Assembly: GCA_004764695.1 (NCBI GenBank)
Contig: SMSO01000031.1
Span: 494,600 to 558,599 of the forward strand
Length of the DNA stretch: 64,000 bases
Origin: Schizochytrium sp. TIO01
Lineage: Eukaryota; Sar; Bigyra; Thraustochytrida; Thraustochytriidae
Direction: 5' to 3'
In this document: one piece after another, positions 4,212-64,000 of the stretch
Position numbering within the stretch: the stretch's first letter is position 1
Layout: each line of letters begins with the position of its first letter
Translations under genes and position numbers: made by a program
The notes under the pieces: generated by a model
Databases searched by the model: none
Told to the model about the DNA's origin: nothing
The model's input: the letters and a program-made list of their open reading frames with translations, nothing else

Positions 4212-7200
4212 ATGGACGCGGACGTTTTGCGCTCACAGCTGAGGAAGTCTCTGGGGTCTTCCAAAAGGTTTCAAGGAGTGGCTCTTCGTCACGACGACGA
4301 GTCCAGCGAAGATGATGACGACAAGCACGGAGACGAAACCAGTAGCGTAGAGAGCAGCGCTGAAGACGAAGACGAAGACGAAGAGGAAGGCGAGGAAGAG
4401 GAAGAGGAAGAGGAAGACGACGATGAAGATGACGACGATGAGAATGAAGATGACGATGACGAAGATGATGAAGTGTCAGATACGTCAGACTCGCAAAAGA
4501 GCTCCCGTGGACCAACTGCATCATCGCCATCGTCATTATCATCGGCCTCAGCATCAGGTAAGATGATGGGTATGACGTCAAAATCGAACTCATCAGACTC
4601 ACTAGGAGCCCAAATCAAGTCTCTGGGCAATGCTAAACGTACTTCTGCGTCTCATGGGGCTCGAAGAGATCATGAGATGCTCCGAGAAACGGATGATGAT
4701 GATGAGAATTCGGACGGCAGTTCTGACGAAGAGCACATGGGAGCCACAACCACATCGGAGAAACACGCGCTCAGAAGTCTAGCAAATGGCGCAGGCGAAG
4801 GTTCCGAAGATAGTACAGCTGCAGAGGGAAACAATATGAGTCATGCCTCAGTTCTAGACGCCTGGTCGAGGCAGATTGAAGAAACTATGGGCCATCGCGC
4901 TACGCCTAAACCTCGGCGCCGAAACCGCATGACAAGCGATGACTTTGAAGACGACCTTGACGACGACGAAGACGAGTCTGCCTTCAATGTACAATACTCT
5001 AAAGCACATGCCTTGCCAGCCAGCGCTAGTGAGCGTCCACCAACAGCTGAAGGTCAAGAAGGTGCTGACGAATTTATTCCTGGTGCACAATCTCGAGAGG
5101 ATCTTGAAAACCTGGGTAAAACATTCATTCGTGTGAAAGCTGAAACCGGGGTGTGGCTTGACCGCGTACTTGGGACTTCAATGTTTGAAACTGGAAGTAA
5201 TATTGATGCTACTGACACAGGAACTCTGTACCAAGTCCTTAAATCTGGCGTTGTTCTCTGTCGCATAGCAAATGCCATTCTCCCTGGGTGCATTACATCC
5301 TTTACAAGTGATTTCTCAAAGGAAACGCCATACATGCAGCCACTTAGCGAACGGGAAAATATAAAAAAATTCATTCGGGCCTGTCACGACGCAATGAGCA
5401 TTCCTGATTCGCTGCTTTTTGATGTTGGAGACCTGCACAACATGCAAAATATCCCAAAGGTAATTCTATCTTTGCGTGCTGTTGCTGAGTATGCTCGAAA
5501 ATTCCTTCATTCTGCTCCTGAAGTACATTGGCGGAAACTTGATGATGTTCCTTTAATGCACGATGAAGACGCTGTGCTCATGGCATCTTCGGAAATGTCG
5601 AAGATGGATAGCGCGACGGTACACCACATGTACGCGGTGGATTCTGCAGCGAAGGATTCACCAGTTAAAAGCAATCGTTCCCCAGAAGAACAGAACTTTG
5701 AAGACCGCAAGCGAAATATCCAGAAAAACCTTGTTTTATCAACCCTCACACTCCAGCAGCAAGCACAGTCGCAATATATGCAACGTCCTCATTCGGCGCG
5801 GTCTGGCGGCTCTTACTCACCCGCATCCTCTTCAACGTCGCGGCCAACACCTGTATCAGCGTCAAACCTTGCAGATGAGCACGATCAGCGTGCCGGAGTG
5901 GAGACAGCGTCACTAGGTGATGCAAATAACCTTCACGTAGGTGAGCAGTCCGTTGAGAGCTGGTTAGCCTCCCTGGGCCTATCCATATACTTTGGTGCGT
6001 TCGTTGAAGATGGCTGGGATGAGCTATCAACAGTGGCTCTCATGCATGCTAGTGATTTAAGGGATGTTGGAGTTCGGAAGAAGGGCCATGTTCGTAAGCT
6101 GGAGAGGGCTATTAAACAACTTAAAGGTGGCCTTAGTGCAACTTCGGGGCGAGAATCTCCAATGTCCGGAAGCATGCGTAGCTCTCGGGCTGGATTTCGC
6201 AGCCCGCCAGCTTCCCCAGAGCGCACAAGCCGAATTCCTAAGTCCCCTCGTGGGGGGTTTGCTACTCAACTCAATCTTGGTGCGATGCGGGGTCACAGCC
6301 TGCATTCTATGGATCGGCAAGAGCTCTATAACAAGGACAAGACTTGGGCAGAGTGTCGAACTCGAGCAAATGTAACACAGGACTTAGACGATGCGAAGGC
6401 GATATGGAAAGATTTGCACGACATTAGAGCCGACATGGAGCGACATGAAAGGTCGTTGGCGCGTCCTGAAGAAGCTAAACGCTCCATGCGGCACCTCCTT
6501 ACTTTAACCGAAGACCTGGTGCGCTCTCTTATGCCCTTTGACGCACCAATTGTAATCGACATAGGCTGGGACTCGATAAAATGTGGCTATGTTTTTAGCA
6601 AGACTCCTGTCCTTCTCCCATCGATTGTAGGCAAGTTTGAGCATGCACAAAACAGCATGGTCCGCACGACGCAGTCATCTACAATGTCAGTGGGGCGTGA
6701 TGTGTTCGATGAGTGCGGCAAGTCTCTCCAGGCGGGTGGGTCTCGCTCGAGCAGCTATACAGGTGACCAGGGAAGCTTCGTTGTACGTCATGCTATTCAT
6801 CGGGGTATTGATTCAATTGTTGACCCTCAGGTTGTAGAATGGGATGACATGGAAAAAATTCTTCAGCACATGTACAGGGACATCCTGCAGACCAAGGCCG
6901 AACATCATCCTGTTTTAATTATTGAGCCTTGCCGAAGGTGGGGGTCAGCTGAACGAAATCGATTGATGGAGATTCTTACAAACATATTCAAAGTTCCGGC
7001 AGTATACTTTACACCCGCAGCTCCGCTGGTTGCGTACAAGGCTTCTCAGAAAAGTTGCGTTGTACTAGATATGGGCGAATCGCGATCAACGGCTAGCGTT
7101 GTCTTCAATAACAGGTTAGTGAAGAATGCAGTTGTTCACTCACCAATTGGTGGTTTGCAGCTTACAGAATTGATGATGCAATCCCTCACCCAGGATGGAT

Positions 7201-8606
7201 ACGACTTTAAGTCGGTGTTCGAAGCCCAGAACCCAGCTCGCTTTTCGTCAACACGACACTTTATGGAACAAGAGATGGCCCGCGAGATAAAGGACCGCGT
7301 TTGCGTTATATCGAATGGTTACGAAGAGTACTGTGTTACTGCGGAGAACCTGCCTGATATTCTTGGAGCTTATCTTCCACGCGTCACCCGGGGCGCGCCT
7401 TACCTCAATGTTAGTGAGGCCCGTGTGCAGGTTCCCGAGGCTCTCTTCTCTCCTGATTTGGTTCGACGTGATCAGTTTTATAATGGCGGTAGTCTTCAAC
7501 ACATTATAAAGGCCGCTTTGGACCTCTGTACCGAGTCAATTGTGGCTGCTGCCTCAGAAACTGTGCTCATTTGCGGAGGCACGGGCAACCTTCGAGGTCT
7601 TGCTGGTCGCTTGCAGAAGGAGCTAAATGAAATGTTTGCACATGAATCTCGAAAACCTCCACAAGTAATCCTCGCTACGGAGGATGATCTCACTGACAGT
7701 GTTGAAAACCCCATTTTCACAGCCTGGCAGGGTGGCTGCATGCTAGCGTTGCAGCACGATTTTCAGATGCGGTGGATTGCGCGTGAGGCTTTTCTAGAAC
7801 AAGGCGATGAGGTGTTTACAAAATCCTCCATTGCAGAGGGCACTGGCCCATTCCCGTTGTATAGTCCTGACACAGCTTTATATAAGGCAAATAGAGCAGT
7901 GCACTCAATGCGGGAGTTACTATCAGTTTTGGGGAAAGGGTCAGCATCCTCAAGTCAACCTCAAGAAGGGTCCTCACTCTACGATGGACATCATCAACCA
8001 CGAGGTGAGGATCTTCGAGGAAGGCAGCAGAACTATCAAGACCAGCAGCAACAACCAAAGATTGATATGCACCAGGTGCAATCTCATCAGTCTCAAGGAC
8101 GATCAATGGCGCATCGGGCCAAATCTCCTATGAGTAGCTCACGTATCAAGTCTCCACGCTCTGTTCGCTCGCCACATACAGGCTTAACTGTCGATTCTAG
8201 AGTTAACACGAAATACGATGATGAGAGTTACAGTGAATATCTCTCGCCCCGTTCGTTGAAGAGCATGATTCAAGACGTGGCCGTTTATCTGGAGCAGCAT
8301 AAATGTTCTGAAGGCCTTGTCCTTGATGTAAAAATGCATCTTTTTGAGCAGTATTCTCGCGTTCCACCTCGCAGGCGTCTTTCCGTTGAAGATATTTTAC
8401 TTTCGTTGCCAAAAGAATTGAGGGACCGCCTTGCAAAGTTTGTTTCCATGAGCAATCTCGAAGTTGAACAACAGGGGCGGCGGTCACCCATGAGTTCTCG
8501 CAATGGTATCATCAGCAATCTTCTTCATGCCAATAGTGGTGGGGAAAGCGATGACTTCGATGATGACGATGACGACGGCGAGGAGTACTTTGCTATGGCA
8601 ATTTAA
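4212..8606 (+). CDS. CH-SAM-actin-related fusion protein with C-linker-like tail
   Basis: A 1464-residue protein with an unusual domain order. Residues about 30-95 are almost uninterrupted Glu/Asp, followed by a disordered Ser-rich region. A calponin-homology domain spans about 304-430 (VLKSGVVLCRIANAILPG; DLHNMQNIPKVI). A SAM domain lies at about 580-640 (VESWLASLGLSIYFGAF). An actin fold runs from about 777 to 1200: phosphate-1 loop IDIGWDSIKCGY, phosphate-2 region VVLDMGESRS, adenosine motif ETVLICGGTGNLRGLAGRLQ, and an actin-like end WQGGCMLALQHDFQ. The DxGDG of actin reads DMGES, so nucleotide hydrolysis may be altered. Ser-Pro/basic clusters flank the Arp domain. The tail at about 1350-1416 resembles the C-linker of cyclic-nucleotide-gated channels. 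The start ATG sits in a strong context (GCGCCATGG). Inference: a cytoskeletal or cortical scaffold; it fits no standard Arp class. Confidence 0.9.
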   Translation: MDADVLRSQLRKSLGSSKRFQGVALRHDDESSEDDDDKHGDETSSVESSAEDEDEDEEEGEEEEEEEEDDDEDDDDENEDDDDEDDEVSDTSDSQKSSRGPTASSPSSLSSASASGKMMGMTSKSNSSDSLGAQIKSLGNAKRTSASHGARRDHEMLRETDDDDENSDGSSDEEHMGATTTSEKHALRSLANGAGEGSEDSTAAEGNNMSHASVLDAWSRQIEETMGHRATPKPRRRNRMTSDDFEDDLDDDEDESAFNVQYSKAHALPASASERPPTAEGQEGADEFIPGAQSREDLENLGKTFIRVKAETGVWLDRVLGTSMFETGSNIDATDTGTLYQVLKSGVVLCRIANAILPGCITSFTSDFSKETPYMQPLSERENIKKFIRACHDAMSIPDSLLFDVGDLHNMQNIPKVILSLRAVAEYARKFLHSAPEVHWRKLDDVPLMHDEDAVLMASSEMSKMDSATVHHMYAVDSAAKDSPVKSNRSPEEQNFEDRKRNIQKNLVLSTLTLQQQAQSQYMQRPHSARSGGSYSPASSSTSRPTPVSASNLADEHDQRAGVETASLGDANNLHVGEQSVESWLASLGLSIYFGAFVEDGWDELSTVALMHASDLRDVGVRKKGHVRKLERAIKQLKGGLSATSGRESPMSGSMRSSRAGFRSPPASPERTSRIPKSPRGGFATQLNLGAMRGHSLHSMDRQELYNKDKTWAECRTRANVTQDLDDAKAIWKDLHDIRADMERHERSLARPEEAKRSMRHLLTLTEDLVRSLMPFDAPIVIDIGWDSIKCGYVFSKTPVLLPSIVGKFEHAQNSMVRTTQSSTMSVGRDVFDECGKSLQAGGSRSSSYTGDQGSFVVRHAIHRGIDSIVDPQVVEWDDMEKILQHMYRDILQTKAEHHPVLIIEPCRRWGSAERNRLMEILTNIFKVPAVYFTPAAPLVAYKASQKSCVVLDMGESRSTASVVFNNRLVKNAVVHSPIGGLQLTELMMQSLTQDGYDFKSVFEAQNPARFSSTRHFMEQEMAREIKDRVCVISNGYEEYCVTAENLPDILGAYLPRVTRGAPYLNVSEARVQVPEALFSPDLVRRDQFYNGGSLQHIIKAALDLCTESIVAAASETVLICGGTGNLRGLAGRLQKELNEMFAHESRKPPQVILATEDDLTDSVENPIFTAWQGGCMLALQHDFQMRWIAREAFLEQGDEVFTKSSIAEGTGPFPLYSPDTALYKANRAVHSMRELLSVLGKGSASSSQPQEGSSLYDGHHQPRGEDLRGRQQNYQDQQQQPKIDMHQVQSHQSQGRSMAHRAKSPMSSSRIKSPRSVRSPHTGLTVDSRVNTKYDDESYSEYLSPRSLKSMIQDVAVYLEQHKCSEGLVLDVKMHLFEQYSRVPPRRRLSVEDILLSLPKELRDRLAKFVSMSNLEVEQQGRRSPMSSRNGIISNLLHANSGGESDDFDDDDDDGEEYFAMAI

Positions 8607-43307: not shown

Positions 43308-46232
43308 ATGCCTTCGCATCCCAACGAAAGTGGTGACGACGAGGAGTCCCTCGACCCTCGGCGACTGTCTACGATTCGCCGTCAACGGTCGCGTGGACTC
43401 CGAAGCGCTGCATCGGCAATGACCTCTTCATCGAGGTTATCTGCATCGCCCTCCTCTTCGACAACGCCAGCACCCGCATCTTCCTCGAGGTCTCGCACGT
43501 CAAACCTACACCAACAGATTCTCCAGCGACAACACCAGCGAGAACTGGAGCTCCAGCGACGCCAGGAGCTTGAGGGTGATCATCAAAGTATTCGGAGAGA
43601 TATTGAGGATAGGTTTTCACGTTCTGCAAATAGCTCTGCCATGCTCCGAAATGCAATCCCGTCAGCTTCGTCCAACTCTGCCAGTGCAACTATGCGAAGC
43701 GCCACTACATTACGAAGAAGCTCTTCAGATGCTATCGAGGGCTCCGACAGCTCTGCTGCGTCTCACTCGTCTCGAGATTCTGAGGAAAGCCCGCCTCCAC
43801 GTCGCTCCATGCGAAGATCTGCGCGTTTACACGTTGCAGAAGCCTCCAGAACGCTCTTGCAGGTTTTGGGCCCTGTTCTGAGAGCCCAGGCATACAGAAA
43901 CGAACGAGAGGCACTTCGAGGTGAGCTTGAGAGAGCCCTTGGCGTGAACTCGCATGATGACGACGACGACGATGTATTTCTTGGTCTGCATAGACCCGAG
44001 GACGACTGGGATGAAGACACACGCAAAATCATGCGAGGTTTGGACTCAGAAGTGGTGAAAGAACTCGGGAGATTTTCGCTTTCTGTCGACAACATTGGAC
44101 GACTTGTCGTGGAACCTAATTTTCGCTACGAGGTGCAGCTTGCAGCAGCTAGCATAGAGCCTAGAGCTAGAGTGCTCAGACTTTCCAAGATCACAGCCGA
44201 TAGCATCCCCCCATTGGTGTTACGCAACGTCGCTCTCTTCCTACGAAATTGTCCAATGCTACTTACACTACCAGACAACATGCGTATCGAAGGTAGTCTC
44301 ATCATTGATCTCTGTCCGAGACTTACCTCATTAGGGAATGGTTTCGAGCTCACGTCTGGCGCCTGGTCTACAGAGGCGTTTACGCACCTCAGAAGCGAAC
44401 TCCGTCACGCAAGACCGCGAGCTTCCTGGGAAAACCTCCTGTGGGCAGGTATTGACTCAGTTAAACGGGCTGAGGAGCTCTCTGATCGCAAGTGGTACGA
44501 AATCACATCAAGGCGCAGGAGCACACTCACGGATGCACCTTTGCCCTCTGAGTTCCGCGTCAGAAAACCGGACATCATTACCCCTTCGTCAGCACTCAAA
44601 GGACTCCCTAATTCTGTTGATGGGTTTGCAGAGATTGATTGCCGTAAATGTAACTCTCTTGCAATACTTCCTGATATGCTATGTGTGGATGGAGACGCCA
44701 ATTTCCAGTGGTGCTCGTCCGTTACAGAGCTGCCCGCTATTGTAGAGATTGGCGGAAATCTTGATCTCAGTTCCTGTAAAGCTCTACAGACGCTTCCCCA
44801 TAATATTCATGTCGCAGGAGACCTTGTGCTTCGACAAGCAACAAGCTTGAGAGGCCTTCCCGACGTCCTCGAAGTTGGCGGAGACCTTAAATGTGGCGGC
44901 CTGCGTAGTCTTCAAACGCTTGGACAACAGCTAATTGTTCACGGGAGTCTTGACTGCAGTGCTTCACGTTCGCTCGAGTACCTTCCCGAGATCCTTATTG
45001 TGGAAAACGATCTCAATTGCTCTTCATGCATGAACCTCGTTGCGTTGCCGTCTGAACTATCAGTCGGTGGTGATGTATATCTTGAACGGTGTGAAAAAAT
45101 TGATTCTCTGCCAAGCGAGATGCTTGGCTGGCCTGCACGTGAAGATGGAGAGCCGCATGACGTATTCCTCGGCAATTCTGGTCTGAGTGTAACTTCGCTC
45201 GAATGGCTCCGTAATGTCGAAGCGCCGTTTCTACGTTTTCATGTCTCTCTCCGTGCTAACCGACGCAATGAAGAGGCTGTAGATGTACCTCCATTTCCTA
45301 ATTTCACACAGGCAGTATCTTTCTGGCTTCAGTATGCTGCCACAGAGCAAGGTGACCCAATAAGTTTGGATTTCACAGCTGAAGATGTATCAAAGGCTGT
45401 CGATGACGCAAGTAAGCATGGCGTGCTGGTATTTTTGTCACGCTTGCGAGGAGCTAAAGAATTCTTACTCACGGAAATGCGACCACGTCTGGCTTGTCGT
45501 GTGTTGGAAGTCCTTGAGATCCTTGTCACTGACGAAGTAGCTCGGGAGGAAATTATTTTGCGCATGGTTGATAGTACTGATGCGTGTGATGACAAACCTA
45601 TTTGGGCCTTAAATCAAATGCATCTGCAGGTGGAGACAGCTCGAGCACGGGGGAGTGAAGCGAAGCTACGCAGCTTAGCACGACGCGTCATGAATTTGCA
45701 AGTTGTTCACGAGCACGCCATGGCAAAGTGCAACTCCCTGGGCTATGTGGACGATGTTTGTGTCTACCTACGGTTTGAAATTGCACTTATGGATGACTTA
45801 AACCTGCCGGTTTCTGCATTAGCTATGCACTTTCCCAAGTTCATGGAAATCAAAGATCGCGAGTTGGATGCAGCCCGGCAGGAAGCCCTTGCCATCACTG
45901 ATGAGCAAGTGGAAGCCTTTCTCGTCACTTGGCCAGAGTGGCAACGGTTCCAGCGTGAGGAGATTGCTGCTGACATACGCTGGGATGAGCTTCCAGAGAT
46001 GCGAGCTATGTCTCTTCGACGCAGTCTTCGTGACCTCTTTGGTTCAAAGGTTAAAGATCCAGTTATCTTTCGTGGCAAACAGTGGAGTATGAATGACTTG
46101 TTGCGTCATTGGGTTGCCCACGGGGTCGACTTTAACAATGTTCCAGTTACTGCAGAAGAGATCCTCTCCGGACTTTCACGACCCAAGAATTCGCGTGTGT
46201 CGCGCAAATTCTGGTCCTTCTATATTGAATAA
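43308..46232 (+). CDS. LRR protein with NEL-type (IpaH/SspH-like) E3 ubiquitin ligase domain
   Basis: A 974-residue protein with a Ser/Arg/Gln-rich N-terminus followed by leucine-rich repeats at about residues 300-345 and 435-640. The repeats are of the short LPX type with a recurring V.GDL pattern (for example LQTLPHNIHVAGDLVL). The C-terminal part, from about residue 660, matches the Novel E3 Ligase (NEL) domain of bacterial effectors. The active-site motif CxD is C760-D761-D762 in DSTDACDDKPIWAL, followed by the NEL-like helices LRSLARRVMNLQVVHEHAM, YVDDVCVYLRFEIALMDDL and ITDEQVEAFLVTWPEWQRF. In bacteria NEL proteins are secreted into host cells and transfer ubiquitin through the Cys. No secretion signal is evident here. 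The gene is intronless, in a CACCATG start context, next to ordinary eukaryotic genes. Origin by horizontal transfer from bacteria is inference. Confidence 0.85.
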   Translation: MPSHPNESGDDEESLDPRRLSTIRRQRSRGLRSAASAMTSSSRLSASPSSSTTPAPASSSRSRTSNLHQQILQRQHQRELELQRRQELEGDHQSIRRDIEDRFSRSANSSAMLRNAIPSASSNSASATMRSATTLRRSSSDAIEGSDSSAASHSSRDSEESPPPRRSMRRSARLHVAEASRTLLQVLGPVLRAQAYRNEREALRGELERALGVNSHDDDDDDVFLGLHRPEDDWDEDTRKIMRGLDSEVVKELGRFSLSVDNIGRLVVEPNFRYEVQLAAASIEPRARVLRLSKITADSIPPLVLRNVALFLRNCPMLLTLPDNMRIEGSLIIDLCPRLTSLGNGFELTSGAWSTEAFTHLRSELRHARPRASWENLLWAGIDSVKRAEELSDRKWYEITSRRRSTLTDAPLPSEFRVRKPDIITPSSALKGLPNSVDGFAEIDCRKCNSLAILPDMLCVDGDANFQWCSSVTELPAIVEIGGNLDLSSCKALQTLPHNIHVAGDLVLRQATSLRGLPDVLEVGGDLKCGGLRSLQTLGQQLIVHGSLDCSASRSLEYLPEILIVENDLNCSSCMNLVALPSELSVGGDVYLERCEKIDSLPSEMLGWPAREDGEPHDVFLGNSGLSVTSLEWLRNVEAPFLRFHVSLRANRRNEEAVDVPPFPNFTQAVSFWLQYAATEQGDPISLDFTAEDVSKAVDDASKHGVLVFLSRLRGAKEFLLTEMRPRLACRVLEVLEILVTDEVAREEIILRMVDSTDACDDKPIWALNQMHLQVETARARGSEAKLRSLARRVMNLQVVHEHAMAKCNSLGYVDDVCVYLRFEIALMDDLNLPVSALAMHFPKFMEIKDRELDAARQEALAITDEQVEAFLVTWPEWQRFQREEIAADIRWDELPEMRAMSLRRSLRDLFGSKVKDPVIFRGKQWSMNDLLRHWVAHGVDFNNVPVTAEEILSGLSRPKNSRVSRKFWSFYIE

Positions 46233-57413: not shown

Positions 57414-59144
57414 TCAAGGCTCAGGGCAAGGAAGGGCTCGAAGTACTCCAAAAACACGCTGAAAGAAGTTCCTCTGGTCTGACGTGCTGTCAGGGAAAGG
57501 AACCACAGAAAAATGGTCATGTCGCTCATTCATAAGCACAGTATACTGCCCTGGTGCAAAGGGTGCTTTGCGAGAAGCCAGTTCCTCCTCACTGAGGGTA
57601 AAGTGGCTCTCAAATTGGGCATACGCATTACACAGACCATCGCCGCCACTTTCAATATAATTCTCTACAGAGAATGCCTCATGGTGGCGCTTTTCTTCAA
57701 ACTGAAGAGTGTAAGAAGAAGCAAAAACCCGGTTGGCGAGGTGATAGACCCAGAAGTCCCTTAAAAAGAGTGTCCCGCGATACCAAATTGAATGTTTTTC
57801 GTTTGACAGAGAATCTGATAGTTGTGCGTTATCTCTGGTTGGGTCCGTCTTGACTTCAGCAATGAGAACCTCATTAGCTTCTCTATCACTCAACTTTCGC
57901 TCAATTGCGGGGCTATCTCCTCCAGAGGAGGTTTCCTCATCATCTATGTCAGAGTCAGACGCAGAGATGGAAGCCGAAGACAAGGAGGTTACTGAGGGTG
58001 GGCGAAGCAGTTTTTGGGTGTTGTGGATCAGAGAATAATCAAGCAGGCCCTTTTTGTTTGCAACGAAATTGAATTCGATGTGATTTGGATCGTCCTCAAC
58101 GGCTTTAGCGATTCGCTCGTTCCATTCCAGTGCAGCTTGGATGGTCATATCATGAGCTGCGTTATCTCGCGCGCAAACTGCAGGGGTTCCACCACCGTTG
58201 TGTCCACCAAGAAGACTGTAGATAAAGAATCGCAGACCGCCGCTTTCCACGTTCCACTGAGACATACCAAAGTCAAAAAATTGGTCAAGTTTTGTCTTAT
58301 GACAAAAGAGTTCATAGAAATGTACAGTCATACCTAGCATATACCCGGGGCTGAATCTACGTACGGGCTTGCAGTCGGTATGATCCTCTGCAGCTCCTAG
58401 CTGATACGTTAGGAGCGAACCTTTGAGAGGCGAACTGAGTGTCGTGGTGCTACGAACCCATGCAGCAGAGGTCCCAATGCCCCAGAAATCTGTAGCGACT
58501 AAGTACTTGAAAGCTCGTACCGTGTTGCCGCCAAAACTGTGCCCTACAATGTGGATTGGGTTCTTCGCAGACCACGTGCTATATGCTGGCAAATCTTGAC
58601 TGAAATCTTTTCCAAACCTGTCATGACCTGCCTCATGCGAGTGTTTTTCGCCGTAGTCCACGCGAATCCCGAGTAACTGCGCGAAGATCTCGCAAGCTCG
58701 ATCATGAGCGCTTCCAACGCAAGACACGGGCATGACAATCACAGGAGATGATTCAGTGGACTGCTTGGCCGCTTCTCCCCAGTACATTTCGCACCATCTC
58801 GCATTATTTGGGCCCAAGAAGCCGCTCACTAGCACGATAGGGCAATTCGAAGAGGAATCAGCGTCATTATACTCCTTGGGTTCTTGAGACACGAGCTTCT
58901 GGTCTATCATGAAGTCATCATCCATAGAGCCAATTGAGGCACGGGGAGATGAAGAGGTTGTAGAACAAGAGGAGGATTTGGACAATGGAATGCTTGAGCT
59001 GTCACTGGAGTGATGACTTGGCTGAGATGAGCATGAGGAAATACTTGCAGCATCACCACCACTGTCACGCTTTCTATCTACGGAGGATGAACCTGGCTCA
59101 GCCGTCGATGAAGGCGAAGAAGAGAGGTAGCTGTAGACACCCAT
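57414..59144 (-). CDS. Lipase, bacterial family I.5-like (copy 2)
   Basis: A 576-residue alpha/beta hydrolase resembling the large staphylococcal and Geobacillus lipases. After a Ser-rich N-terminus come CPIVLVSGFLGPN with the oxyanion-hole region, RWCEMYWGEA, SCVGSAHDRACEIFAQLLG, VDYGEKHSHEAGHDRFGKDF and the nucleophile elbow HIVGHSFGGNTVRAF. The conserved STTTLSSPLKGS follows. The catalytic Asp is likely in ESGGDGLCNAY and His in NERHDHFSVVPF. Residues about 380-430 form an acidic Ser-rich insertion lacking in the second copy. The frame extends to 59177, but only via a GTG; the first ATG is at 59144. There is no signal peptide, so the enzyme is probably intracellular and may act on triacylglycerol or another ester. 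The neighbouring gene at 61120-62484 is its paralogue. Confidence 0.88.
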   Translation of the reverse strand: MGVYSYLSSSPSSTAEPGSSSVDRKRDSGGDAASISSCSSQPSHHSSDSSSIPLSKSSSCSTTSSSPRASIGSMDDDFMIDQKLVSQEPKEYNDADSSSNCPIVLVSGFLGPNNARWCEMYWGEAAKQSTESSPVIVMPVSCVGSAHDRACEIFAQLLGIRVDYGEKHSHEAGHDRFGKDFSQDLPAYSTWSAKNPIHIVGHSFGGNTVRAFKYLVATDFWGIGTSAAWVRSTTTLSSPLKGSLLTYQLGAAEDHTDCKPVRRFSPGYMLGMTVHFYELFCHKTKLDQFFDFGMSQWNVESGGLRFFIYSLLGGHNGGGTPAVCARDNAAHDMTIQAALEWNERIAKAVEDDPNHIEFNFVANKKGLLDYSLIHNTQKLLRPPSVTSLSSASISASDSDIDDEETSSGGDSPAIERKLSDREANEVLIAEVKTDPTRDNAQLSDSLSNEKHSIWYRGTLFLRDFWVYHLANRVFASSYTLQFEEKRHHEAFSVENYIESGGDGLCNAYAQFESHFTLSEEELASRKAPFAPGQYTVLMNERHDHFSVVPFPDSTSDQRNFFQRVFGVLRALPCPEP

Positions 59145-61119
59145 CTTGTCCAAGTTGTTGTAATTACAGTCTGCCACGAAACAGGAGAAATGTTGTTGTT
59201 GTTGCTTTTGTCGGTGTTGTCGGTGTTGTCAGTGTTGCTTTTATGGACGGCAATCTATGCCGTGCAACAACGCACTCGGACCAGCAATACAAAGTTTGGC
59301 AGAACTGGCACCTGCAGCACAGAGGAGTGTCACTGCACAACGATCTCAGCCCTTGGCCACGCCAACGAAAACCGCTAGGCCCAGCGTGCCATGAAGTGTT
59401 GATGGCCAAACCCAAAGAACTAGGTATGGTTGCTGAGGACCACTTTCTTTTTATCATCATGATGAGGCTGTGGAATCGTGGACCAACATTGGACTTATAT
59501 TCGCTCTCTTACCATAAAGCGTATCACTCAAGTGTTAAAACAATGGCGTCGCAGTAGGAGTAAATACGTGGTCGATAAGAGGGCTTTTCAAGTGTTCAAG
59601 TAAAAAAAAACGAAAGAGTAAGGCAACAAACAAACAAACAAACAAACAAACAAACAAACAAACAAACAAACAAACAAACAAACAAACAAACAAACAAACA
59701 AACAAACAATCACTGACTGACTCTGTTTCGGTTGCCGATGAAGATAGCTGTCAAACTTAGTGGAGCAGGCGATCTTTCCTGGACCTAAATACAAAGCACT
59801 GCTGCTGAGTGTCAGAACCCATCCCACCGCGTCTTTCCCAACGAACCTCAATGCAACTTCAACTTCTCAACGCCTCGAAGCAGCATGTTGTCAAGAGTCT
59901 TCAGGTTCCTAAGCATTCATTCATTCATTCATTCATTCATTCATTCATTTATTCATTCATTTTATTCATTCATTCATGATCTTAAAAGAAACTACGTAGT
60001 GGGTGCTAGGCCTCGCTATGCTACCGTTTCTACAGTTCACAATAGCCATCCCTTACAGTCTGAAAGCAAAGAGAGAGGAAACAACACCTGCTTCAGTGAG
60101 ATTTTCGCCGCCTTCCTCCCTCTTTGAACTTGTATGAAACGCTGCAAAGCAAACAGCAATTTGCGGGAAGGCTCTCTTCGAGTTGAAAGAAACTCGAGGA
60201 ATCCTTCCTCAGTTCCTCGAATTGCTCAACCAAACCCAACCAACTCCAGCTCAACTCCAATTCCAGTCCCACGAGTCAGCTTCAGCTTCGAAAGAAGACC
60301 AGCAACCTCGACTTGAAGGCAGGCCGGAGAGCAGCGTGATTCCTGGCAGGTCCCACGAGGGCTGTGTGCTTGCCACATGTATGTACGATGGCCCATGTCT
60401 GCGAACTGGTTCTGTGCTAATCGAAGCTCATTGGATGATATATATAGGTGAGTTCGCCTTTGTGGCACCTCTTCGAGAGCTTTCTATTGTCCGCATCGCT
60501 CGTATTGGCGGAAAGCGAAGCTTTATTAGCGGACCATATTGAAATGGCGAACTCAGAGCACTCTCTGAAGATGGTAACACGGGGAATGAGAGAACAACCT
60601 GAACGCGCTGAGATTTCTTTTGGAGGAATAAGATCAAAGGTAATTAGGTGGCAGTAGTACTACTAGTAATAGTGAACCAAAGCACAGACGATGACAATAA
60701 TGTGGACGGTGATGATTAAAAAAAAACAGATGTATCAATGATAGATTCATTCAAGAGGATAAAACTGAACGCAGGAACTCGCGCTGGGATAAGCGTTAGG
60801 TCAAGATCCCTCGTTCTTCGTGTAAGCCTAAGGAGCGAAAACAATGATCGACATTGGTCACTAATCTTCACCTTGCCATGAGCATTTGCTTCAGTGCCAC
60901 GAGGTAATAAATAGTTGAAGACTAAAAGGGAGACGAATCAACAAGTGAACAAACAAAAAAAGTGTAGACTTAGTAGCGCATCGACTTCCCTTCACTGGGG
61001 ACTATTAGCATTTGTTTTACGTGGGAAGCAGAAAAGGGCTCTCATGATAAGCCGCATTTGTTGCATATTATTGTACTAGGGCGCGCTAAAATCGACCAAG
61101 ATTAATGTAACGAAAGAAA
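59145..61119. repeat. Spacer between the two lipases with CAAA and CATT arrays
   Basis: About 2 kb. A CAAA/AAAC array of about 85 bases lies at 59625-59709 and a CATT array at 59913-59977. A GTTGTC/GTTGTT trinucleotide-like patch lies at 59190-59240. Open frames are short and artefactual or antisense. No gene is supported. Confidence 0.7.
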
Positions 61120-62484
61120 TTAGACGCGAAGACCACGAAGGCTTGTAAAAAGTTGCTGGAAAAACATACGTTGGTCTGAAGTGCTATCCGGAAAAGGAAC
61201 AATCGAAAAGTGGCTGTGGTGTTCGCTCATGAGCACAGTGTATTGGCCTGGAGCTAGACGGTCTTTCTGAGGTACAAGCTCCTCCTCACGCAGCACATGC
61301 TCACTTTGGTATTGCGAATGTACATTACAAAGCCCGTCTGTACCACTTTCGAGGAAAGTTTTGACACAAATGGCTTCCGAGTGATGCTTTTTTTCAAAAG
61401 CAAGCGCATATGATAGGGAATGTGCATACCGTGCAGCCATATGTAAGCCCAAATCTCGCATGAAGACCAAAGCACGCCAAGATCTTGACTCATTCACTAC
61501 TACTGTATCTTCGGCAACCTGCTCAAGTTCCGGTTCCAAGTTTTTGACTTCTACGTCAGTTCTGAGTTGGTAGCAGGCTCTTCCATCCTGTGGATTCGGG
61601 TCCGAGTAAGACTCATTGATTCTGCCATCGCGTTGCCAAAGTCGTGCGATTGGATTAACGTGAAGAAGGTCCCTTGTGTTGGCTACAAAATTGAACTCAA
61701 AGTGCTGAGAACCTGCACTTTTGGGCAGAGAGCCTAATCGATCCAACCATTCGAGTGCATCTTGGATTGTCAGGTCTTGTGATGCATTATCCCGAGCTTG
61801 CGCTGCGGTAGTACAACCATGAGCGACGCTTTTGAAAAATTGTTTCCACCCAGCTCGCTCAAGTCCCCAATGCCGCATTCCGATGTCTAAATATTGGTCG
61901 AGTCCAGTTTTGCGGCAAACGAGTTCGTAGGCGTGCATACCAAGTCCAACAAAGTTAACCACGCTGAAGAAGCGAACTGGCATTTTTGTGCAATGGCTTT
62001 CTTTATGCCCCATTTTATATGTCAAGAGAGACCCATGTAGAGGGGAGCACAGTGTAGTAGTGCTACGAACCCAAGCAGCTGAGGTGCCAACATTGAAGAA
62101 GTCGATGGCAACCAAATATCTAAAAGCGCGTACTGTGTTGCCGCCAAAACTGTGGCCCACGAGGTGGATTGGACGCTCCGCAGACCATTCAGGAAACATT
62201 GCTTGTCCTGTGTAATCTGTGCCAAATTGGTCGTGGCCGAATTTCTCTGAATGGGCTTTCCCGTAGTCAACTTTACAACCCCGAAGTTGTGCAAACATCT
62301 CGCATGCGCGGTCATGTGCGCTTCCGAGACTAGCCACAGGTAGTGCAAGTACCGGGGACGCTTTTGTGCCTAACTTCATCGCTTCTCCCCAATACATTTC
62401 ACACCAGCTTGAATTTGTTGGACCAAAGATCCCACTTATCACAACAATGGGGCAGTCTTCGCTTGTTTTCTCGCGTACAGACAT
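61120..62484 (-). CDS. Lipase, bacterial family I.5-like (copy 1)
   Basis: A 454-residue alpha/beta hydrolase and tandem paralogue of the gene at 57414-59144, with the same motif order: CPIVVISGIFGPTN, WCEMYWGEA, VASLGSAHDRACEMFAQL, VDYGKAHSEKFGHDQFGTDY, HLVGHSFGGNTVRAF (nucleophile Ser), STTTLCSPLHGS, ESGTDGLCNVHSQ and SEHHSHFSIVPF (likely catalytic Asp and His). Both copies end in the shared segment PDSTSDQR.FFQ. It lacks the long Ser-rich N-terminus and the acidic insertion of copy 2. The ATG at 62484 is the first in frame; the longer frame begins with a GTG. No signal peptide is seen. The pair arose by tandem duplication, judging by shared architecture and adjacency. Confidence 0.88.
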   Translation of the reverse strand: MSVREKTSEDCPIVVISGIFGPTNSSWCEMYWGEAMKLGTKASPVLALPVASLGSAHDRACEMFAQLRGCKVDYGKAHSEKFGHDQFGTDYTGQAMFPEWSAERPIHLVGHSFGGNTVRAFRYLVAIDFFNVGTSAAWVRSTTTLCSPLHGSLLTYKMGHKESHCTKMPVRFFSVVNFVGLGMHAYELVCRKTGLDQYLDIGMRHWGLERAGWKQFFKSVAHGCTTAAQARDNASQDLTIQDALEWLDRLGSLPKSAGSQHFEFNFVANTRDLLHVNPIARLWQRDGRINESYSDPNPQDGRACYQLRTDVEVKNLEPELEQVAEDTVVVNESRSWRALVFMRDLGLHMAARYAHSLSYALAFEKKHHSEAICVKTFLESGTDGLCNVHSQYQSEHVLREEELVPQKDRLAPGQYTVLMSEHHSHFSIVPFPDSTSDQRMFFQQLFTSLRGLRV

Positions 62485-64000
62485 TTTCTTGGTTATCACC
62501 TTTCCTACACTCCTCTATTGTTGTCTCGGCTATTCTGATTGTCCGTTCTATTCGTCCCTGTTGTCACCTCGTGTGCGATGATCTTCTCTACGTGCCCGCG
62601 TTCAAGTTCTGCTCGATACTTCTTGTACGAAAGACCTCCAAAAATCAATTGCCCAATCTCCACCTTACAACTCGTCGTCAAACAATAGGTGTCGTCTACC
62701 TGCGAATTAAGGCACTCACTTCCTGCCAAGTTTACTGCATCGACTAATCACAAAAAAGAGTTCCTATCAATCAAATTCCTGAGTACCGAAGACACCAAAG
62801 ACTGGCTCGTGGATTCAAGGCTTAAGAGACTAATCAACTCAAACTGCACAGTTGCCCTTGGGGCTGGTGCTGTGTTTACTCAGGTACGCGATGGGCCCAC
62901 TCTGGGATCCCCAGGCACTGGTACTCTCGTATTTTGTAGCAGTTGGCTAAGTACTCCTCAACTCGGGCTAGACCAGCCCGACGATCACGCACGTTGACCT
63001 GCCTGCGGAGATCAACCAGTTCACAACTGCCTCGAGGCCTCAAGTCAGTCTCCCGAGGGCCTCCGAGCCCCAGAACCCCCCTCGACAGTGCACAAACAGG
63101 TTTTGGCTTTCCTGCTGCATCTCTTGCAGACCCAACGCGCCGACGGGGATTGCGTTGCTGATGTATGTGCTCTTCAAGGTGTTAGTTAGTTATAACTTCT
63201 TCCCTCCATATCACTCACTCTGTAGCGAGCGGTACCCGCAAGCGCCTTCCTAGGGATAGCACTAGCAGAGGCCCTACCGACCTTGGCCGTGAAAAAGAAA
63301 GTCGTCAATGAAAACCTCACTCAACGTTGATTGAAACAGCAATGCTTCGTCGAATTGCCACGTAGAGTACACCGAACTGCTGCTGCTGCTGCTGCTTCAA
63401 CTGCTTCAAGCTGAGGAGCGGCTCGATCTAAGTCTCAGCTGCACTAGCTCTCTCCACAAGCGAGGCACTGGCCGAAGGGAACCAGGAGTAGCACGAGTGA
63501 CATTTCTGTTCGAAGCTGAGAGCTTAAGCTTGGGTGGAAATGGCTGATGTCGCCAGAAGCTAAGCAGGCAAGCAAGCAAGCAAGCTAGCTGGCTCTGCAA
63601 ACCGTACCATCACGGCGTCTGCAAAGTAGGTGGGTACCAGGCAGCGCAAGCGTCACGTCGTCGATTGCAGTCGGTGGCACGGATGATGCTGAGACCCAGC
63701 ACCGCGGGTGATGGAGAAGAACGAAGTGGTCTCCGCTGGTCATCGCAGTAGGACAGACATAGCGGAGACTAGGCTGCGCGTCGACACTCCGTCGTTTCTT
63801 CTGCGAGAACGAACGAGCGAAGGCGCCAAACCCAACAGCAGCCCACGGGCGTCCAAGAAGGGCTGCGACCGTCACCACATGATTGATTCATAACTCATCA
63901 TGACGGGCGTCTCGATCAAGAGCTGCTCTCGAGCCAACTGTCACACGCGAGAGTGAAACGATCGATCGAGAGTGAAGACTAGCTTTTTCAGAGTCCGCTA
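62485..64000. other. Right-hand spacer
   Basis: About 1.5 kb upstream of lipase copy 1, presumably including its promoter. It holds a CTG trinucleotide run at 63377-63397 and a CAAG/CTAG run at 63565-63590. GC-rich open frames (62943-63161, 63585-63878) are short and of no recognised family; the right edge may belong to a gene outside the window. Confidence 0.5.

Follow-up and report, generated by a model that had tools for sequence, protein, structure and literature searches.

The gene described here, in a window of 64,000 nucleotides (the whole stretch of Schizochytrium sp. TIO01 DNA that was analysed), encodes a protein with leucine-rich repeats (LRRs), a NEL ubiquitin ligase domain with conserved catalytic residues, and an additional C-terminal tail. 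It belongs to a family of about 18 NEL genes in this genome. The thraustochytrid-type NELs form a single clade and have the tail in common, and the receptor domains ahead of the NEL have been swapped. Judging from sequence comparison, we put a probability of about three in four on the reading that these are endogenous, thioester-forming NEL E3 ligases, which arose by one transfer of a whole gene, probably from a bacterial donor, and subsequently multiplied and exchanged receptors. The data suggest that a protein of the bacterial effector type was captured long ago and made into the cell's own machinery.

Domain composition of the NEL protein

The gene is a single uninterrupted frame (Table 1). 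The start codon is tentative, because the best-matching models from another strain and from Hondaea start further in. Residues 1-170 have no aligned residues in the Hondaea model. A Pfam scan of residues 241-424 assigned no family. Region 425-609 is 68% identical to the Hondaea protein.

Table 1. Features of the NEL gene and its product, in window coordinates
Feature	Residues	Position	Strand	Remarks
Whole NEL ligase gene	1-974	43308..46232	+	one exon, 974 aa, stop included; start codon tentative
Ser/Arg/Asp-rich low-complexity N-terminus	1-230	43308..43997	+	read from sequence
N-terminal region	241-424	44028..44579	+	71% identity with Hondaea P0002
Eight 21-residue LRR units (LPxxLxVxGDLxLxxCxxLxx), proposed substrate receptor	433-600	44604..45107	+	
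NEL catalytic domain	704-887	45417..45968	+	Pfam E=1.4e-21; 87% identity with Hondaea
Catalytic CxD motif	C760-D761-D762	45585..45593	+	aligned to IpaH-type chains
Equivalent of IpaH9.8 Asp397	D815	45750..45752	+	alignment counted by hand
Extra C-terminal tail (DPV...W...DLLRHW...G.D), putative diverged U-box-like module	888-950	45969..46157	+	tail comparisons pro and contra

A preliminary description, made from the letters of the DNA, had assigned the C-terminal region to the NEL fold and placed a CxD motif at C760-D762. The Pfam NEL profile (PF14496) matches with 77.3 bits against a cut-off of 24, and the exact position of the motif is borne out by an alignment in which C760 and D762 match the CxD residues Cys and Asp in IpaH9.8 and SlrP. 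In a sequence search of the PDB, all 12 chains found at E<=0.1 were IpaH, SlrP or SspH, with IpaH9.8 as the best match (E=4.5e-7). D815 lies 55 residues past C760, a distance that is longer by 5 inserted residues in IpaH9.8. Its counterpart there, Asp397, is named in passages of a review as a second acidic residue important for NEL activity (PMC9320238).

The arrangement of an LRR array followed by a NEL with CxD and second acidic residue is that of the IpaH/SspH/SlrP and NopM effectors (PF14496). In contrast to these, the protein belongs to a paralogous family encoded in a eukaryotic nucleus, without secretion context; it extends past the NEL into a tail, and in some members Armadillo or SPRY domains replace the LRRs. 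Effectors of the IpaH/SspH/SlrP class are encoded by bacteria that carry a type III secretion system (T3SS), whereas this is a eukaryotic nuclear gene.

The LRR units begin at residues 433, 454, 475, 496, 517, 538, 559 and 580, and most of the eight have a V.GDL-like core. The repeats and the V.GDL pattern had been noticed before, but their assignment to the LPX type does not stand: the LRRs of IpaH-type effectors are double-LP repeats of about 20 residues, whereas the units here have 21 residues and a single LP. In the bacterial frames, the commonest LP-LP spacing is 17 (68 of the 77 frames with countable spacings, out of 83 in total), which we read as a 3+17=20-residue repeat. Only 2 of these 77 frames have 21 as their most frequent spacing, yet 21 accounts for 64 of all 612 bacterial spacings. 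Conservation of the receptor sequence carries no information on which substrate is bound.

An expanded family with exchanged receptors

The 64.06 Mb genome contains 19 NEL places. We count them as about 18 genes, since one gene (L024) is broken across two frames and accounts for two adjacent places. The CxD is found in all 18, the window gene and 17/17 others, and the 16 other TIO01 NEL frames that were scanned, a set that leaves aside the split gene, all exceed the Pfam NEL cut-off. The domains ahead of the NEL are LRRs, Armadillo repeats (L009) or SPRY (L010 and L011). TRIM proteins consist of a RING plus SPRY; L010 and L011 resemble them in joining a SPRY receptor to a ligase module, with a NEL where TRIM has the RING, and the likeness is meant as an analogy and not as homology. 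An apparent giant NEL protein of 23,648 aa is an artefact, produced where an open frame continues across a long N run; the gene at this run, L025, is readable only in part.

The thraustochytrid-type NELs form one clade in both trees that were calculated (support 100/100 with 71 rows and 100/99 with 61 rows). Six TIO01 genes pair with Hondaea P0002, P0008, P0009, P0012, P0014 and P0015 at 97-100/81-100 in the 71-row tree, the P0008 pair being weaker in the 61-row tree (93/38). The trees include 16 of the 18 TIO01 genes, without L024 (split) and L025 (cut by N); two near-duplicates were also left out, P0001 and L014 (the gene of L014 is the second one of L013). Transcripts (MMETSP) represent the family relatives P0003, P0027 and P0035 (taxid 1112570 is Thraustochytrium sp. 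LLF1b). Since there are orthologue pairs with Hondaea, the family must be old. The earlier proposal of a captured effector turned endogenous ligase thus keeps its core, a eukaryotic LRR-NEL protein with intact CxD and probable bacterial capture, but what was presented as a lone gene has about 18 paralogues and belongs to an old family.

Two further proteins nest among the thraustochytrid-type NELs in the 61-row tree, the Arm-NEL protein P0031 from Durusdinium trenchii and the SPRY-LRR-NEL protein P0032. Each may be a contaminant or the product of a transfer.

The expansion of the family and the swapped receptors would also be expected if the proteins served in intracellular defence. By analogy with TRIM proteins, the LRR, SPRY or Armadillo domains would sense invaders, such as viruses or intracellular bacteria, and the NEL would mark them. 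Three adjacent NEL genes on contig C24, which suggest local duplication, are in line with this idea, and in 7/7 pairs compared the 200 residues before the NEL have diverged faster than the ligase part. However, ligases of any role commonly diverge faster on the receptor side, and the window gene keeps 74% identity over these 200 residues, the highest value of the seven pairs (others 33-58%). Such conservation is no less compatible with a conserved role in the cell than with an arms race. We regard a defence role as rather unlikely.

The C-terminal tail and the nearest relatives

The nearest relatives outside the thraustochytrids are six proteins (P0016 and P0022-P0026), here called the P0016 group. 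They fall on the thraustochytrid side of the tree with a support of 98/97 (71 rows) and 99/99 (61 rows). The 35 bacterial rows lie on the opposite side (98/97) in the 71-row tree, which contains no Salmonella and Shigella sequences; in this unrooted tree the window NEL falls outside the bacterial effector clade. T3SS effectors of the Bradyrhizobium/Pandoraea type are less close than the P0016 group. The label of IpaH/SspH type given in the preliminary description is right for the NEL but not for its closest kin, which is the P0016 group with its U-box-like tail and not an IpaH/SspH/NopM-type protein.

Like the thraustochytrid proteins, the members of the P0016 group have 21-residue LRRs (31/33 counted LP-LP spacings), a NEL and a homologous tail. 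Their identity with the thraustochytrid rows is only about 25-30% in the alignment (range 21-30%), and Pfam scans of P0016, P0023 and P0024 detected neither Armadillo nor SPRY domains. Among the database entries of the group, one is listed for Acer saccharum and another for a Cytophagaceae MAG. A plasmid search with P0023 gave 145 records, all below 60% identity and mostly from Shigella, and a phage search gave one record at 26.6%. A search with P0022 as the query (E<=1e-30) across the class surrounding the Paraburkholderia genome was positive for 1 of 369 genomes, namely the one at its centre. In two scans of viral contigs there were 3 and 27 pattern matches, among which tblastn identified no relatives.

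The tail is present in 14/14 other thraustochytrid-type rows and in 6/6 rows of the P0016 group, and in 0/83 bacterial comparison frames. In the P0016 group, 5/6 tails match the Pfam U-box or NleG families weakly, all below the cut-off (the best U-box score, PF04564, is 17.4 bits for P0022, cut-off 21.4), and are in this sense weakly similar to U-box E3 ligases and to the U-box/RING-like NleG effectors. The thraustochytrid tails, in contrast, have diverged, and none of the eight scanned has a Pfam match. Comparison with five TIO01 U-boxes by hhalign gave 70% and a score of 28.8 for the P0016 tails (against a maximum of 20.3 in 40 column shuffles and 19.2 in 43 real windows), and 41% and a score of 24.6 for the thraustochytrid tails (shuffles 15.8, real windows 16.0). 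When the tails were used as a profile to search the PDB, no U-box was found; the four weak hits (E 0.73-1.6) were all lipase, alpha/beta hydrolase or PETase, which speaks against the U-box reading or marks its limit. No U-box match appeared either when the complete sequences of the window protein, P0016, P0023 and P0024 were scanned against Pfam.

From the sequence comparisons, the ancestor of the tail-bearing NELs may have been a NEL/U-box hybrid. A tentative extension, to which we give rather less than even odds, is that thraustochytrids possess a private class of hybrid E3 enzymes, in which a thioester-forming NEL is combined with a U-box-derived E2-docking module, and which descends, by acquisition of a single gene, from the LRR-NEL-U-box effector of a bacterium, with LRR, Armadillo and SPRY receptors swapped. 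If true, this would be the first catalytic class of ubiquitin ligase in eukaryotes shown to derive from a bacterial effector, as well as the first ligase to unite NEL and U-box chemistries.

On the preferred reading of an endogenous ligase family, the whole LRR-NEL-tail gene would have been transferred once, before this lineage and Hondaea separated, with a P0016-type bacterium as the most likely donor. The family would then have multiplied, and Armadillo or SPRY domains would have taken the place of the LRRs in some members. The opposite direction, with the protist or its relatives as the source and bacteria of the P0016 type as the receivers, appears improbable. The tree is unrooted, the P0016 group is small and includes the maple and metagenome entries, and either side could be the origin of the tail-bearing gene. 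Nevertheless, tail-less NELs occur widely among bacteria (77 of the 79 comparison loci fetched were retained), and the P0016 tails are closer to a full U-box than those of the thraustochytrids.

Catalytic residues and predicted mechanism

In the second alignment, which includes bacterial rows, the Cys and the Asp of the CxD are each present in 61/61 rows, and the D815 equivalent is an Asp in 60/61, the exception being the paralogue L018 with a Glu. The loss of this residue in L018 and the split of L024 might indicate a catalytically dead family that persists only as an LRR scaffold. This is very improbable, since C760 and D762 are invariant in every aligned row and conservation is highest in the NEL in all seven pairs compared.

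The product is predicted to be a NEL-type E3 ubiquitin ligase of the cytosol or nucleus. The LRR array would bind a substrate belonging to the cell itself. Ubiquitin would be accepted by the NEL from a charged E2, forming a thioester with C760 with the help of D762 and D815, and would then be handed from C760 to a lysine of the substrate. When substrate is absent, the LRR side probably restrains the NEL, as in IpaH and SspH, and the tail, as a diverged U-box-like module, probably aids E2 docking or regulation.

Bacteria are not known to have ubiquitin, and NEL-like domains have for this reason been assumed to evolve only against a host. Our searches of the open-licence literature found no paper on eukaryotic NEL proteins, and in passages of a review NEL ligases are treated as a bacterial family that is structurally unlike eukaryotic E3 enzymes (PMC9320238). 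A NEL family that is conserved and expanded in a free-living eukaryote would mean that a hijacking effector domain can become a standing part of the ubiquitin system, and the evolution of such a domain within the host cell would be open to study here. The close relative Aurantiochytrium is already in genetic use (PMC10016063), and the role of the family is therefore testable.

Genomic setting

The possibility of a bacterial contaminant or a misassembly within the window, raised in the preliminary description and suggested by the lack of an intron and by the account of NEL as a bacterial effector domain in a review (PMC9320238), can be dismissed, because the about 18 genes are spread over 9 contigs of 2.3-9.0 Mb and six of them have Hondaea orthologues (P0002 on a contig of 265,701 bases), and also in view of the fusion of NEL to Armadillo and SPRY within the family. 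Over residues 440-974, the protein is 78% identical to its Hondaea fermentalgiana counterpart, and 100% identical to P0001, which comes from another dataset. The description of the gene as placed among ordinary nuclear genes agrees with the eukaryotic neighbours (Nup96, an actin fusion and an AAA ATPase). Its codon use, earlier judged not obviously foreign, lies inside the neighbour ranges, with a GC3 of 0.464 (0.392-0.475 in nine neighbouring ORFs) and an RSCU correlation with the rest of 0.67 (range 0.54-0.80).

The NEL domain in its genomic setting

In the window protein, residues 704-887 match the Pfam NEL profile (PF14496; E=1.4e-21), which bears out the domain that the preliminary description had claimed from the sequence. 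The SlrP, IpaH and SspH2 models of NCBIfam match weakly, far under their cut-offs, and each of the 12 PDB chains matched is an IpaH, SlrP or SspH. The proposed catalytic CxD at C760 and D762 was found to align with that of IpaH9.8 and SlrP. We take the catalytic cysteine of IpaH9.8 to be Cys337, a position that also follows from the CxD motif. On the IpaH9.8 alignment, counted by hand, D815 lies 60 chain residues past the catalytic cysteine (55 query residues and 5 inserted), which equals the distance from Cys337 to Asp397. Excerpts of PMC9320238 describe Asp339 and Asp397 as important for IpaH9.8 activity.

As had been supposed, the composition of the gene is not foreign: its GC3 and codon use fall inside the range of nine neighbouring ORFs. 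The neighbours, among them Nup96 and an AAA ATPase, are the ordinary nuclear genes that had been described. Elsewhere in the window, the CH-SAM-actin frame represents an unusual actin fusion, and two adjoining Lip_C ORFs have the most deviant codon use among the ten ORFs compared.

Features in the window and NEL genes with further domains in the same genome
Feature	Window position	Strand	Basis
NEL ligase candidate	43308-46232	+	single open frame, 974 aa
CH + SAM + full actin domain	4212-8606	+	1464-aa open frame; domain matches
Lip_C ORF	57414-59177	-	match to lipase-like C-terminal domain Lip_C
Lip_C ORF	61120-62499	-	match to lipase-like C-terminal domain Lip_C
L009, NEL + Armadillo			Armadillo above Pfam cut-off
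L010, NEL + SPRY + LRR_6 match			SPRY above Pfam cut-off
L011, NEL + SPRY			SPRY above Pfam cut-off

The NEL family and its relatives

The window gene is a member of a family and no stray gene. PF14496 matches occur at 19 places in the Schizochytrium sp. TIO01 genome (64.06 Mb, 37 contigs); because two adjoining places belong to one gene (L024) split over two frames, there are about 18 NEL genes including the window gene, a lower bound, as this is a large-family count. CxD is kept in all 17 other genes, and all 16 of these that were scanned pass the Pfam NEL cut-off. Three genes on contig C24 (L013, L014 and L022), about 20 kb apart at most, probably arose by local duplication. An intron or a sequence error could explain the frame split of L024, which falls inside the NEL domain, as could decay of this copy. 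At L025 (contig C3), a long stretch of N cuts the NEL gene on its 5' side and also gave rise to a false giant open frame.

Homologues of the window protein come chiefly from Hondaea fermentalgiana and from metagenome sources; the Hondaea entries take their names from disease-resistance proteins, tubulin or importin. Over residues 440-974, the window protein shares 78% identity with its Hondaea partner P0002. Hondaea proteins already carry Pfam's NEL label, so that databases had the domain call before this analysis; a search of open-licence papers brought up none on NEL proteins of eukaryotes. MMETSP transcripts represent other family members: P0003, together with two of Thraustochytrium sp. 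LLF1b, P0027 and P0035.

Constraint and possible mode of action

NEL and the C-terminal tail that follows it are together more conserved than the preceding 200 residues in all seven pairs compared, one with the metagenome protein P0006 and the others with Hondaea (in the window gene, 84% versus 74%; in the other six, 56-82% versus 33-58%), which reflects purifying selection on the ligase part. Identity of the window protein to Hondaea is 87% for NEL, 68% for the LRR region and 75% for the tail, and its receptor side is rather steady as well.

The LRRs would bring in the substrate, C760 would be charged by an E2, and ubiquitin would then be handed to the substrate. By analogy with IpaH and SspH, for which excerpts of PMC9320238 describe a NEL domain restrained by the LRR side until substrate binding, the NEL domain may be held back until the substrate is bound. 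The Armadillo or SPRY members would work in the same way on other substrates. Our best guess is that the window gene product does conserved work within the cell. For the NEL family as a whole, defence is a possible role, of modest probability.

Phylogeny

Two unrooted trees were built, with Salmonella and Shigella sequences omitted. The first (184 NEL columns, tail excluded, 71 rows) has three blocks, namely 35 bacterial rows (98/97), six rows of the P0016 group (85/68) and 30 thraustochytrid-type rows, which form one clade (100/100) on a long stem (1.24). The P0016 group (P0016 and P0022-P0026) consists of LRR-NEL-tail proteins, the nearest outsiders to the thraustochytrid NELs. The second tree (61 rows, ten further proteins added) is concordant (thraustochytrid-type 100/99, P0016 group 91/83), and its single added outsider, P0036, groups on the bacterial side. 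Six genes of the Schizochytrium genome have Hondaea partners in the 71-row tree: P0002, paired with the window gene (100/100), P0014 (100/97), P0012 (99/81), P0008 (97/91, falling to 93/38 in the 61-row tree), P0009 (100/99) and P0015 (100/100). The deep order within the clade is not settled by the trees.

One gain is the simplest reading of these unrooted trees; its direction, probably from a bacterium as the suggested capture would have it, is something we infer.

P0031 (Arm-NEL; filed under the dinoflagellate Durusdinium trenchii) and P0032 (SPRY-LRR-NEL) both nest among the thraustochytrid-type NELs in the 61-row tree, through either assembly contamination or transfer. The database source of P0023 is Acer saccharum (sugar maple), but the protein probably comes from a microbe in the sample.

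The tail and the 21-residue LRRs

The thraustochytrid tail has the form DPV...W...DLLRHW...G.D. Counted as present when the profile match reaches at least position 280 of 289, it occurs in 14/14 other thraustochytrid-type proteins, 6/6 P0016-group proteins and 17 of 18 frames of the Schizochytrium genome (L025 not counted); the one frame without it is the first half of L024, the split gene. It occurs in none of 83 bacterial frames (77 loci, near-copies and fragments included), where the profile reaches 252 at the furthest.

The P0016-group tails are likely of U-box ancestry. In a Pfam search at E<=10, five of the six weakly match U-box (P0022, E=0.0052; P0025, 0.18; P0023, 0.21) or NleG, a U-box-type ligase (P0016, E=0.023; P0023, 0.057; P0026, 0.078, alongside one unrelated family), none at the Pfam cut-off; P0024 has no match at this threshold. 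Against five own-genome U-boxes, hhalign gave 70% and a score of 28.8; the highest control scores were 20.3 among 40 column shuffles and 19.2 among 43 real windows taken from these proteins. For the thraustochytrid tails, the same ancestry is less sure: hhalign gave 41% and 24.6 (best controls of the same kinds and numbers, 15.8 and 16.0), and Pfam matched 0/8 at E<=10. Against a U-box origin, too, a PDB profile search with the tails found no U-box. A putative role of the tail in E2 docking is a guess.

The P0016 group resembles the window protein in the tail and also in its LRRs, with an LP-LP spacing of 21 residues in 31/33 cases (7/7 in the window protein), whereas the bacterial frames lack the tail and mostly have a spacing of 17 (commonest in 68/77, 21 in 2/77; 21 accounts for 64/612 of all bacterial spacings). 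The recurring V.GDL pattern noted earlier is real: the window protein contains two or more copies of the LP..L.V.GDL-type motif, as do 7/17 other own frames, 6/14 other thraustochytrid-type and 4/6 P0016-group proteins, but 0/83 bacterial frames. The 21-residue LRR type is also found apart from NEL, because P0017-P0021 share with the window protein the LRR part alone (28-29% of the query covered, no NEL match).
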